Assembly (NCBI GenBank): GCA_002509225.1
Contig: DAHL01000026.1
Span: 1-6,540, forward strand
Length of the DNA: 6,540 bases
Direction: 5' to 3'
DNA from: Euryarchaeota archaeon UBA102
GTDB taxonomy: Archaea; Thermoplasmatota; Poseidoniia; MGIII; CG-Epi1
This document shows, piece by piece, positions 1-4,394 of this stretch (positions within the stretch are counted from its first letter, which is position 1; the number at the start of each line of letters is the position of its first letter). Below the pieces are notes generated by a model, which was not told the origin of the DNA, searched no databases, and saw nothing but the letters and a program-made list of their open reading frames with translations. Made by a program: the position numbers and the translations under genes.

Positions 1-480
1 CCCATCGTTATCCATTACACGGAAGGAGATTGTGTGAGTACCGCCTGAGAGTGACATGTCGAAATCCTCATGATCACTAAGCGAACCATCTAGAGAAGAT
101 TTCCAATCATACTCTGTGATACTACCGTCATCATCTATTCCAGTACCGGTGAAACTGATAACGTCATCGAAACGAGCCGGTGACGGAGAGATAGAATCGA
201 TTGATGAGGTTGGAATCTCATTAGGATTGACGATTAATTCCATAGTTGACCAATTAGACCAAGCTCCTTTGTCATCCTGAACACGGAAAGAGATGTTATG
301 CGTAGCAACTGTGAGAATAGCGCTGAAATCTTCTTGATCACTCAAGAAACCATCGACCGATGAATTCCATTCATAACCGATAATAGAACCGTCAGTATCG
401 GAACCGGAACCACTGAAAGAGATTGTATCGCCATACGTAGCTGGAGAAGGAGTGATTGAATCGATAATGGCAGATGGATA
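1..480 (-). repeat. Two PKD/Ig-like domain repeats, the second cut by the edge
   Basis: Two copies lie about 89 residues (267 nt) apart. The first reads IDSITPSPATYGDTISF ... TDGSIIGYEW ... HNISFRVQDDKG. The second reads IDSISPSPARFDDVISF ... DDGSITEYDW ... HTISFRVMDNDG. Such domains are usually extracellular beta-sandwich spacers or binding modules. Because the second copy runs off the window, more copies may follow. Confidence 0.8.
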
Positions 481-1581
481 ATCATTATGAACGAAGAGAA
501 AGACATTGGAATCCAGATTACCAGCAACGATGTAACTGGAATCTGCTGAGATTGAGACTGAAAAAACGTTATTTTCAGTATCGTAAAACCAGAATGGTTC
601 TCCACTCTCTTTCTCAAAGAGATAAACAAAATCATCGATAGAGCCTGCTAGAATGTAATCTCCATTTTCTGAAATAGAGACCGATTGAATAGTCTCTGGA
701 GCAGTGTATGTCCATAATGTTTGATTACTATCTCTATGGAAGAAATAGAGCGTATTATCTTGAGAGCCGGCGGCGATGTATTCACTGTCATCGGATATGT
801 CAACAGAAATTACAAAATCCGTAGCAGCATAACTCCATAGATTGTTACCGGCCTGATTGAAGAGATAGAGACTGTCATCAGCCGAACCGGCGGCGATGTA
901 TTCGCCGTCAGCAGAGATATCTACCGAAATTATAGAACCGCTTGTGTTGTATTTCCAAGTAGGAATGCCGTTGTTATCTTTATCGAAAAGATAGACAAAT
1001 GAATTCATAGAACCGGCAGTAATGTATTCACCATCATCAGAGATAGAGACTGAAAGTACCCAACTGAAAATAAATTCAGTGCCGTCGGTTAAAGTGTCAT
1101 AACTCCATAGATGATTGCCTGCCTGATCGAAGAGATGAACCTTGTTATCCCAAGAACCGACTGTGATGTATTCGCCGTCGGCTGAGATGTCGACCGCCTC
1201 TACACCATTGTAAGCAGAAGATGACTCAATAATGTAAGTCCAGAGTGGTTCGTTACTATCGCGGTGAAAGAGATAGACTATTCCATCATAATCGCCGGCT
1301 GCGATGTATTGACCATCAGCGGAGATTGCTACGGAATTCACACCGTTGTCAGCAGTATAATTCCAGAGTGGTGTGCTATTATCCTTGTGAAAGAGATTGA
1401 TTGACCCCTCGCCATCACTGGCAACGATGTACATGCCATCATCAGAGATGTCGGTTGAATGTGCATTACCGGAAATTGTATGATTCCAGAGTAGATCGAC
1501 TTCGGCCTCTGTCTCTTCAGCACAGACGCCACATACGCCCAGAAAAAGAACCAATAAGACAGAAAGTTTGAATGAGTTCAC
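1..1581 (-). CDS. Secreted eight-bladed beta-propeller protein with PKD-like domains (C-terminus cut by window edge)
   Basis: This gene is open to the left edge, and 527 codons are visible. The GTG start at 1581 is the only start after an in-frame TGA (1602-1600). It begins a clear signal peptide: N-S-F-K, a hydrophobic stretch at residues 6-20 (LSVLLVLFLGVCGVC) and a probable signal peptidase I site after VCA-21. The cysteines do not sit in a good lipobox. Residues 31-365 hold eight repeats of 32-47 residues with the pattern LWxY ... SVxISxDGxYIxAGSxDxxLYLF, one per blade as in WD40/PQQ-like propellers. Two PKD/Ig-like domains follow (about 368-453 and 456 to the edge), each with SPSPA, DG-S-I-x-x-Y-x-W and HxISFRV motifs. 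The protein is probably exported and surface-bound or released; adhesion or polymer binding is plausible, but no catalytic motif is visible and the rest of the protein is unseen. It begins 38 nt after the Nmd3 gene and may have its own promoter. Confidence 0.85.
   Translation of the reverse strand, partial: MNSFKLSVLLVLFLGVCGVCAEETEAEVDLLWNHTISGNAHSTDISDDGMYIVASDGEGSINLFHKDNSTPLWNYTADNGVNSVAISADGQYIAAGDYDGIVYLFHRDSNEPLWTYIIESSSAYNGVEAVDISADGEYITVGSWDNKVHLFDQAGNHLWSYDTLTDGTEFIFSWVLSVSISDDGEYITAGSMNSFVYLFDKDNNGIPTWKYNTSGSIISVDISADGEYIAAGSADDSLYLFNQAGNNLWSYAATDFVISVDISDDSEYIAAGSQDNTLYFFHRDSNQTLWTYTAPETIQSVSISENGDYILAGSIDDFVYLFEKESGEPFWFYDTENNVFSVSISADSSYIVAGNLDSNVFLFVHNDYPSAIIDSITPSPATYGDTISFSGSGSDTDGSIIGYEWNSSVDGFLSDQEDFSAILTVATHNISFRVQDDKGAWSNWSTMELIVNPNEIPTSSIDSISPSPARFDDVISFTGTGIDDDGSITEYDWKSSLDGSLSDHEDFDMSLSGGTHTISFRVMDNDG
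487..1491 (-). repeat. Eight tandem propeller-blade repeats within the secreted protein
   Basis: The repeats cover residues 31-365 of the secreted protein. Blades begin at the LWxY-type motifs near residues 31, 72, 113, 158, 209, 249, 289 and 330, and each ends in a (L/V)(Y/H/F)(L/F)F strand. Blades 5 and 6 are the closest pair (shared ISVDIS and EYIAAGS segments). Blades 3 and 4 carry insertions before the ISxDGEYI strand. The similarity extends to DNA level (recurring gcgatgtattc/gccgtc blocks on the plus strand), which suggests growth by internal duplication. Confidence 0.85.
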
Positions 1582-2641: not shown

Positions 2642-4318
2642 TTATGGAGTTTTTGTTTTTGAATCGGGTTCGGAGGTGTTCGGTTCTAACATACTCGATG
2701 GATCTAAAATCTCTTCTAATTCTTCCCTAGAAAGATCTGTCTTATACTCAGCCACTTCAATTACAGTCTTACCGGAAGAATGGGCCTCCTTCGCTATCTT
2801 AGCAGCCTCCACATATCCGATAACTGGGGCGAGGGCAGTTGCCAACATCAAACCAGAATGAAGTAATTCTGGACCTTTACTGGTTGCTTCAAGTCCTTGT
2901 ACGCATTTCTCATCGAAAACTGCAGAAGAGGAAGTCAAAAGATTGATAGATTGTAAAATATTGTGTGCTGCAAATGGTAACATTGTATTAAGTTCGAAAT
3001 AACCCCCCTGTGCTGCTTGTAGCATAGCAGAATCACAAGCGATTACTTGTGAACAGGCCTGAATCAAAGCTTCAGGAATTACTGGATTGACTTTTCCTGG
3101 CATGATTGATGAACCGGGTTGAACTGCAGGTAGTTGTAATTCTGAAATACCAGCTCTGGGGCCTGATCCGAGCCATCTAATATCGTTAGCAATCTTCTGC
3201 ATACTTACTGCAGCACCCCTTAGAACTGAACTTGCAGCTAATGCACCATCTAATGTTGATTGAGCTAGGAAATGATTATCGGTTTCATGCACATCTACAC
3301 CAGCTAATTCCGAAATATATGTACAAGTTAGAGATGAAAAATCACTATGCGTATTTACACCAGTACCAACAGCAGTACCACCAAGTGCAAGAAGCGAAAG
3401 TTCATCTTGAACTAAGATTAAACGATCAATTGAACGTTCAATTAATCCAGCAAAGCCCTCGAACTCCTGACCTAAACGGATTGGAGTGGCGTCCATCAGA
3501 TGTGTACGACCAGTTTTGACTACATCATGAAATTCATTCGACTTATCGGTTAATGAATTTTGTAATTTTACCAATTGAGGTATTAATTTGTTCTGAATTT
3601 GAAAAAGAGCAGAGAGATGAATTGCAGAAGGTATTACATCGTTTGAAGATTGACCTTGATTAACGTGATCATTTGGATGAATTTCCAATCCTGAATCTTT
3701 TGAAGCTAATCTAGCTATGACTTCATTAGCATTCATGTTTGAAGAAGTTCCAGAACCTGTTTGAAAGACATCAATTGGGAAATGTTCATCGTGTTCACCC
3801 TCTGCTACAGATATTGAAGCTGTAACGATCGCTTCGCTGATATCGTCGGGAATGATACCCAATTTACTGTTAGATTTAGCCGCTGCAGCTTTTATCAGAC
3901 CTAAAGAACGAATAAATGAACGAGGCATTCTGAGACCGCTTACTGGAAAGTTTAGAACTGCTCTTTGAGTACTAGCACCCCATAATGCAGTCTCGGGAAC
4001 ATCCATAGTTCCCATTGTATCCTTCTCCTTGCGAGTGTAAACATCTCCAGGTAAGGATCCTGCCATAGAAACATCAGAAACGCCCTCTTGACTTGCAATT
4101 ATCTTAGCTGCTGCATCTCTAAGACGTTCCTTACGATGTGTAGGGCATTCAAAGATACCGTAATCTGGAAATTTAACATACCCTGAATTCAAATCATCCA
4201 ATAAAACTTGTAACATACTGTTCAATGAGAGGTCTGCATAGCATTTTGTAGAATAATCCTTCAACATTTTGTTGACATTTTTGGTCACCCTTATAGTTGT
4301 ATAAGATTTATCGGCCAT
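2642..4318 (-). CDS. fumC: Class II fumarate hydratase with N-terminal ribbon-helix-helix-like domain
   Basis: This enzyme interconverts fumarate and malate in the citric acid cycle and is a homotetramer in its family. The FumC core runs from about residue 94 (TRKEKDTMGTMDVP) to about 540, matching the usual length of about 460 residues. Visible motifs are FQTGSGTSSNMNANEV (185-200), the B-site-like HPNDHVNQGQSSND (214-227), TGRTHLMDATP with the expected catalytic H273 (269-279), and PGSSIMPGKVNP with the expected catalytic S403 (401-412). The ending LSREELEEILDPSSM is the normal FumC C-terminus, followed by a Ser/Thr/Glu-rich tail of about 15 residues. The first ~93 residues are extra. Residues 6-45 read as an RHH fold: strand YTTIRVTK, helix NVNKMLKDYSTK, turn YADLS and helix LNSMLQVLLDDLN. 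The ATG at 4318 sits about 25 nt after a TATA box and has no Shine-Dalgarno sequence, which suggests a leaderless mRNA. Enzyme identity is near certain; the RHH call rests on pattern only. Confidence 0.95.
   Translation of the reverse strand: MADKSYTTIRVTKNVNKMLKDYSTKCYADLSLNSMLQVLLDDLNSGYVKFPDYGIFECPTHRKERLRDAAAKIIASQEGVSDVSMAGSLPGDVYTRKEKDTMGTMDVPETALWGASTQRAVLNFPVSGLRMPRSFIRSLGLIKAAAAKSNSKLGIIPDDISEAIVTASISVAEGEHDEHFPIDVFQTGSGTSSNMNANEVIARLASKDSGLEIHPNDHVNQGQSSNDVIPSAIHLSALFQIQNKLIPQLVKLQNSLTDKSNEFHDVVKTGRTHLMDATPIRLGQEFEGFAGLIERSIDRLILVQDELSLLALGGTAVGTGVNTHSDFSSLTCTYISELAGVDVHETDNHFLAQSTLDGALAASSVLRGAAVSMQKIANDIRWLGSGPRAGISELQLPAVQPGSSIMPGKVNPVIPEALIQACSQVIACDSAMLQAAQGGYFELNTMLPFAAHNILQSINLLTSSSAVFDEKCVQGLEATSKGPELLHSGLMLATALAPVIGYVEAAKIAKEAHSSGKTVIEVAEYKTDLSREELEEILDPSSMLEPNTSEPDSKTKTP
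4021..4028 (-). promoter_or_regulatory. Internal Shine-Dalgarno-like sequence before fumarase Met102
   Basis: GGAGAAGG on the minus strand ends 5 nt before an in-frame ATG (4015-4013, residue 102); the GGAG core is 9 nt away. It could start a 457-residue fumarase lacking the RHH domain. The same bases encode conserved residues of the FumC N-terminus (K97 E98 K99), so the match may be coincidental, and starting there would remove part of the usual first strand. Another in-frame ATG, Met85 at 4066, has no such sequence. Confidence 0.3.
4184..4303 (-). other. RHH-like DNA-binding domain fused to fumarase (residues 6-45)
   Basis: The segment has the strand-helix-helix layout of Arc/MetJ/CopG-type repressors and VapB-like antitoxins. 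In the strand YTTIRVTK the polar residues T8, R10 and T12 alternate with hydrophobic I9 and V11; in known RHH dimers the polar face reads DNA bases. Two amphipathic helices follow, the second (LNSMLQVLLDDL) strongly hydrophobic as needed for dimer packing. A linker of about 48 residues (46-93), with an FECPTHRKERLRDAAAK stretch that I do not recognise, leads into the enzyme. I infer DNA binding from the pattern; no structure or search was possible. Confidence 0.6.
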
Positions 4319-4337
4319 ATATCGTCTTAAAACTGAC

Positions 4338-4348
4338 TATATATAAAT
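4338..4348 (-). promoter_or_regulatory. TATA box of fumC
   Basis: ATTTATATATA on the minus strand contains a textbook archaeal TATA element (TTTATATA, 4347-4340). Its centre is about 25 nt upstream of the fumC ATG at 4318, so transcription would begin at or next to the start codon, giving a leaderless mRNA. The lack of a Shine-Dalgarno sequence in the intervening bases agrees. The fourth copy of the RYATACAT repeat touches its upstream edge, where TFB (BRE) contacts would fall. Confidence 0.6.
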
Positions 4349-4393
4349 GTATGCATTATGTATATATTAAAGAAATGTATACAATATGTATAC
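4347..4393 (-). repeat. Four-copy helically phased motif upstream of fumC, candidate operator
   Basis: Read on the coding (minus) strand, the motif RYATACAT occurs four times: GTATACAT (4393-4386), GTATACAT (4382-4375), ATATACAT (4365-4358) and GCATACAT (4354-4347). Spacing is 11 bp within each pair and 28 bp between equivalent members of the two pairs. The first two copies each contain the 8-bp palindrome TGTATACA and the last contains ATGCAT, so each could seat a symmetric dimer. The array fills most of the gap between the reductase stop and the fumC TATA box. It is a candidate operator, perhaps for the RHH domain encoded just downstream. AT-rich chance repetition is the alternative. Confidence 0.55.
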
Positions 4394-4394
4394 A
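4365..4394 (-). terminator. Possible terminator after the aldo/keto reductase gene
   Basis: Immediately after the reductase TAG, the transcript would read TGTATACA-TAT-TGTATACA, an 8-bp self-complementary stem with a 3-nt loop, followed by the T-rich run TTTCTTTAAT. This could end the purQ-phosphatase-reductase transcript. The stem is AT-rich and weak, and the same bases form the first half of the candidate operator, so either reading or both may hold. Confidence 0.3.

Follow-up and report, generated by a model that had tools for sequence, protein, structure and literature searches.

Does a fumarase of planktonic archaea switch off its own gene? The question is raised by a gene on the minus strand of the stretch of DNA analysed here (6,540 nucleotides, the window throughout), whose product has a fumarase-type core preceded by an N-terminal extension. 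A preliminary description had likened the front of this extension to a ribbon-helix-helix (RHH) DNA-binding domain and had proposed a self-regulating enzyme. We examined the extension, the promoter in front of it and the corresponding genes of related archaea.

The fusion gene and its N-terminal extension

The minus-strand genes of the window are, in order, the end of a gene that we take to be PurQ-like, an inositol monophosphatase-family gene, an aldo/keto reductase, the fusion, NMD3 and a WD40-repeat protein. In Euryarchaeota archaeon isolate bin133s (L001), the PurQ-like gene, the monophosphatase, the aldo/keto reductase and the fusion follow one another in identical order. Among 98 relatives of the bin133s genome, the window's kind was found in a clade of small genomes (G001-G021; 98% identical in G016), which we infer to be Marine Group III. 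The presence of NMD3 points to an archaeal source. The WD40-repeat protein (1-1581, minus strand) is truncated and secreted-looking, with WD40-type beta-propeller repeats and then, by eye, PKD-like repeats, of which Pfam lists WD40 only. The fusion gene is divided as follows.

2642..4318, minus strand: the entire fusion, 558 codons and a stop codon, ATG start; orthologs found
4181..4318, minus strand: residues 1-46, strand-helix-helix unit of RHH-like type, predicted to bind DNA (low-confidence model; invariant residues; without RHH profile match)
4034..4180, minus strand: residues 47-95, conserved GxVxFPxYGxxxCP hairpin, helix 59-76 and variable linker (alignment, models)
2645..4033, minus strand: residues 96-558, catalytic core of class II fumarase type, followed by a short C-terminal tail (NCBIfam and Pfam matches, Foldseek)

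The NCBIfam family fumC_II matched residues 96-544 of the 558-residue protein, and Pfam identified Lyase_1 (residues 103-426, 293 bits) and FumaraseC_C (residues 492-544, 69.1 bits), both above cut-off. The complete FumC core is preceded by 95 residues, close to the 93 or so first estimated. With the full-length model as query, Foldseek returned solved fumarase chains at 43-49% identity across the 50 matches listed. Since the score against fumC_II (TIGR00979; 507.8) lies under the curated cut-off of 664.75, although this is still the best family, we call the enzyme a fumarase-family protein; judged from its sequence, fumarase is the likely function of the core.

The preliminary description had pointed to close relatives as the place to look for the extension, and there it was found throughout: it runs from the aligned start codon in all 18 orthologs with a readable start (the window and 17 loci, L083-L098 and L100). 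The database proteins P0002 and P0003 also bear it, and it is therefore no artefact of a single assembly. In an alignment of 16 of the extensions (L092 and L098, which contain unknown residues, were omitted), Y6, T7, I9, R10, V11, T12 and K13 were invariant, leaving the predicted DNA-contact strand nearly so. Following the RHH-like unit, residues 47-76 (about 4091-4180, minus strand) contain the GxVxFPxYGxxxCP hairpin, with one invariant cysteine.

AlphaFold2, given the extension alone as a monomer, returned a strand at residues 6-10, helices at 13-27 and 33-44, a strand at 47-51 and a helix at 59-76, with a mean pLDDT of 50.7; in the full-length model (pLDDT 73.3) the two helices of the extension were present and the first strand was absent. 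The RHH strand forms only within a dimer, so that a weak monomer model is to be expected and proves nothing. The order of elements is the one that had been proposed for residues 6-45, but the profile searches did not bear the proposal out: RHH_1 matched 0 of 16 members at E≤1 in Pfam, the window's extension gave zero RHH profile matches in PHROGs, NCBIfam and the PDB profile search, and RHH entries were absent among the fold matches listed for the extension model. Because Pfam returned no RHH match, the resemblance is a pattern match and not detected homology, and we treat the extension as a predicted RHH-like DNA-binding domain. Two weak Pfam hits were put down to chance: that to the RnlA-toxin DNA-binding domain appeared in 2 of 16 members (E 0.02), that to KaiA in 9 of 16 (best 0.027). 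All 20 matches to a profile of the extension were 50-100% identical to that of the window; no stand-alone relative was seen among them (12 of the 20 read), nor was any relative found in viral contigs.

A doubled palindrome in the promoter

The fusion is separated from the aldo/keto reductase by 76 bp (4319-4394), which contain a 28-bp direct repeat with the palindrome TATRCA-N3-TGYATA in each copy.

4378..4392, minus strand: palindrome 1, TATACATATTGTATA (TATRCA-N3-TGYATA), 74 bases ahead of the ATG
4350..4364, minus strand: palindrome 2, TATACATAATGCATA, 46 bases ahead of the ATG and 28 bp from palindrome 1
4338..4348, minus strand: TATA-like box ATTTATATATA, by pattern only, at the aligned position in orthologs

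The TATA-like box stands directly downstream of palindrome 2, about two bases from its end. All 18 ortholog promoters carry the palindrome, doubled and just upstream of the TATA-like box: 13 have two exact copies and five have one exact copy and one that agrees at 14 of 15 positions, these near-matches having been read by eye. The window and L083 have the two copies 28 bp apart, the other 16 sequences 17 bp; the difference of 11 bp amounts to one helical turn. In an alignment of 15 promoters (the window, L083 and L091 omitted) the palindromes were nearly invariant, the sequence upstream was near-random, and downstream there was moderate conservation, at the TATA-like box and near the start codon.

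Across the 21 clade genomes, the palindrome occurs at 32 places in 19 genomes, every one of them immediately in front of the fusion gene. G011 and G014, the two in which it is missing, have no fusion in their assemblies either, and in G021, where the contig stops 11 codons into the fusion, the palindrome is still found upstream. As a control, the reversed pattern was found at 3 places across the same 21 genomes; in 16 genomes of Marine Group II (MGII, see below) the palindrome itself occurred at 2 places, in one of the 16 genomes, and neither was on the fumC contig. Such confinement to one promoter is more in keeping with a dedicated regulator acting on its own gene than with a global one.

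The palindromes could instead be the operators of a separate regulator, with the extension serving tetramer packing, stability or protein contact, a reading that we consider unlikely. It would agree with the missing RHH profile match of the window's extension and, because RHH_1 proteins besides the fusion occur in 11 of the 21 clade genomes (eight of them in frames of 97-106 amino acids), a separate regulator may act at the palindromes. Against it stand the restriction of the palindrome to this promoter and the 10 of 21 genomes in which no RHH_1 protein reached the threshold, although 19 of the 21 carry the palindrome. A further argument against it comes from MGII, where that group's own palindrome is missing from all 38 promoters of genes without the extension.

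Fumarases of Marine Group II

Outside the G001-G021 clade, the fumarases among the relatives of the bin133s genome were about 44-50% identical to the window's kind, and their database relatives are named Poseidonia and Thalassarchaeum, that is, MGII, the next-nearest group. The MGII fumarase often carries a different extension, of about 77 residues and starting MAKHRxGDRRI, in which nothing resembling the GxVxFPxYGxxxCP hairpin was seen. Pfam RHH_1 matched this extension at E≤0.1 in each of the 12 members, with a best value of 3.5e-05 but near the cut-off (first member 19.9 against 20.5 bits), and NikR gave a very weak profile match (E 0.84); among three divergent MGII extensions, one matched RHH_1 weakly and two did not. 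A profile-profile comparison of the window-clade and MGII extensions (one run with 34 against 66 sequences) detected no similarity.

The RHH fusion of the MGII fumarases is easy to overlook. The best 120 of 170 MGII proteins all had the lyase domain, showed no RHH in the precomputed Pfam column and, where names were given, were called 'class II fumarate hydratase', gene-caller strings aside. Since the search for these relatives admitted proteins of 0.55-1.75 times the query length, free-standing RHH proteins could not surface in it.

MGII promoters have a palindrome of their own, ATTAATAA-N-TWATTAAY, which lies over a TATA-like stretch. A longer pattern, TTTATTAATAANTNATTAAY, was found in 14 of 30 MGII genomes hand-picked with and without the RHH domain, as a single copy that in every case sat immediately before fumC. 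For a wider comparison, 389 genomes of the phylum were scanned and 120 fumarase start regions taken, eight of them from outside both groups; nine were without the core by pattern, L175 and L206 were unusable, and four of those scored were outgroup. The scored MGII set consisted of 65 promoters of genes with the RHH domain (RHH+), one with a divergent RHH-like domain (L253, score 15) and 39 without (RHH-), reduced to 38 by removing L192, in which the RHH is hidden behind unknown bases. A palindrome score of at least 15 out of 19 was reached by 47 of the 65 RHH+ promoters and by none of the 38 RHH- promoters (highest 13), as scored with a consensus drawn partly from the same promoters; the RHH- promoters are also visibly less AT-rich. 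In 45 of the 47 the palindrome starts 29-32 bases before the ATG, while shuffled RHH+ promoters scored at least 15 in 17 of 1300 cases. The other 18 RHH+ genes were without a good match. A comparison of domain loss with palindrome loss on independent branches yielded one pair (starred branches) or seven (all), too few to test the association, and gave no significance.

Several MGII loci deviate from this scheme. In 19 of the 38 RHH- fumC loci (L202, L204, L207, L209, L210, L211, L216, L218, L219, L220, L222, L226, L227, L228, L234, L237, L238, L240 and L241), a conserved leader of approximately GTRCGAACKGTGAAGAAGT stands right before the start codon (last 40 nt); neither a consensus RNA fold nor an Rfam match was obtained for the 19 leaders, which possibly represent an alternative control of fumC. 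In the MGII fumarase L253 / L273 (G058) the RHH-like N-extension, RIVSVSFPSEILNSMREIEGVSKNRSQWIVEAVKRQ, is clearly of another kind and gave no Pfam match, possibly a further domain replacement. A sub-lineage of five loci (L187, L189, L190, L193 and L197) has a divergent RHH extension (M[GA]KHN..., WTGxGKxxGRSAWIVQAI); the usual palindrome is absent from it and TTTAATAAC is found farther upstream, so that protein and site may have changed together. Two genomes have two class II fumarase genes each, G088 (C9, C13) and G307 (C9, C33), and in G088 one is with and one without the RHH extension.

A probable autogenous control and its origin

Because a predicted DNA-gripping domain is combined with a doubled palindrome confined to this gene's promoter in close relatives, the enzyme is likely to turn off its own gene: we propose that this fumarase-family protein, through its conserved 95-residue predicted RHH-like extension, probably represses its own gene at the palindromes 4350-4364 and 4378-4392. 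The extension would pair into RHH-like dimers and would itself bind the palindromes. In a fumarase tetramer, the four RHH chains would form two RHH dimers, one per palindrome half-site, and the two palindromes, being in helical phase, could hold two tetramers beside the TATA-like box, excluding initiation factors. As the enzyme accumulates, tetramers would shut the promoter and its own synthesis would drop, homeostasis being the simplest outcome; gating by fumarate or malate is possible. What bears on the self-regulating, DNA-binding fumarase imagined in the preliminary description is thus the doubled palindrome within 4319-4394, conserved in 18 of 18 orthologs and restricted to this gene in 21 genomes, together with an MGII extension that is recognisable as RHH. 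This backing is strong but indirect, and it does not reach the RHH fold predicted for the extension in the window, the putative DNA binding itself, or the sensing of carbon flux and the bridging of paired sites by the tetramer that the description also suggested.

Repression is preferred over activation because the sites border directly on the TATA-like box, the expected place of archaeal initiation factors, and because the MGII palindrome covers the box. Archaeal activators also use sites upstream of the TATA box, and in the window's clade both palindromes are upstream of the TATA-like box and not over it, as an enzyme that activated its own promoter might have them; but with palindrome 2 only some two bases from the box, and with the MGII palindrome over its TATA-like stretch, repression fits better, and we hold self-activation to be quite improbable. 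It is equally improbable that the core is an aspartate ammonia-lyase or some other member of the superfamily, in which case the control would concern another pathway, since the near-tie of fumC_II (507.8) with the broad aspartate ammonia-lyase subfamily PRK12273 (506.8, cut-off 510) is countered by a score of 423.1 against the aspA equivalog, by class I fumarase (PF05681) being found in 0 of the 21 clade genomes (which may be incomplete), by catalytic loops (TGSGT, HPNDHVN and QSSND) that we take to resemble those of fumarase, and by the MGII relative L099, which at 771.8 passes the fumC_II cut-off.

Did the fusion arise once or twice? In a tree of the catalytic cores, the window's clade stood beside the bacterial fumarases L003 and L007 (SH-aLRT 99) and MGII elsewhere; it left out 29 of the 79 loci from bacteria or haloarchaea and 3 of the 11 other loci, in which the pattern had missed the core. 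A second tree, of 48 hand-chosen rows, placed the clade beside a Chloroflexota row (L004, masked stops; SH-aLRT 97) and MGII again elsewhere; both trees were quick. Since the trees separate the enzymes and the extensions have no detectable similarity, two separate fusions, one in the window's clade and one in MGII, are favoured. A single origin might still account for both, because an AU test did not reject one clade for the two fusions (p 0.069). It is a tentative idea, and one that we would rather doubt than defend, that fumarase twice became a DNA-binding autorepressor in planktonic archaea, a Chloroflexota-like enzyme in the window's clade and a separate one in MGII, each capturing a different RHH-type domain and evolving a dedicated operator, with fumarate or malate occupancy setting transcription without a separate regulator.

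Self-regulating enzymes with a DNA-binding domain are few, and PutA is the textbook case. The sequence evidence above supports a PutA-style autogenous control, perhaps evolved twice. The fusion differs from PutA in being another enzyme of another superfamily, in which Lyase_1 and FumaraseC_C were the only domains found and those for flavin, proline dehydrogenase and P5C dehydrogenase are absent; it has an archaeal TATA-type promoter, its predicted RHH unit is unrecognisable by profile in the window's clade, and it has no known ligand or membrane switch. Trifunctional PutA is described with an N-terminal RHH domain and as an autogenous repressor (PMC5293562), and the fusion is alike in being a metabolic enzyme with an N-terminal (predicted) DNA-binding domain and operator-like sites in its own promoter. 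The likeness to PutA is one of architecture, not of family.

With the RHH/CopG repressors (RHH_1, NikR, Arc) the fusion shares the strand-helix-helix order, paired half-sites 9-11 bp apart and, in MGII, an RHH_1 match near the cut-off, but it is fused to an enzyme, and the window's version is found only as this extension. From ordinary class II fumarases (FumC), whose complete core it has, it is set apart by 95 more N-terminal residues and by a score below the curated fumC_II cut-off. Among the literature matches listed, no fumarase paired with a ribbon-helix-helix was found, in agreement with the earlier remark that no described one was known, and the fusion would extend the known enzyme-repressor fusions to a new case.

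The finding narrows the matter down to one defined domain and one defined DNA segment of 76 bp. If the proposal is true, an enzyme of the TCA cycle of uncultured ocean archaea shows small genomes merging enzyme and regulator in one chain; and if a second lineage repeated the fusion with a different domain and a different palindrome, the two would constitute a natural experiment in the co-evolution of protein and operator.
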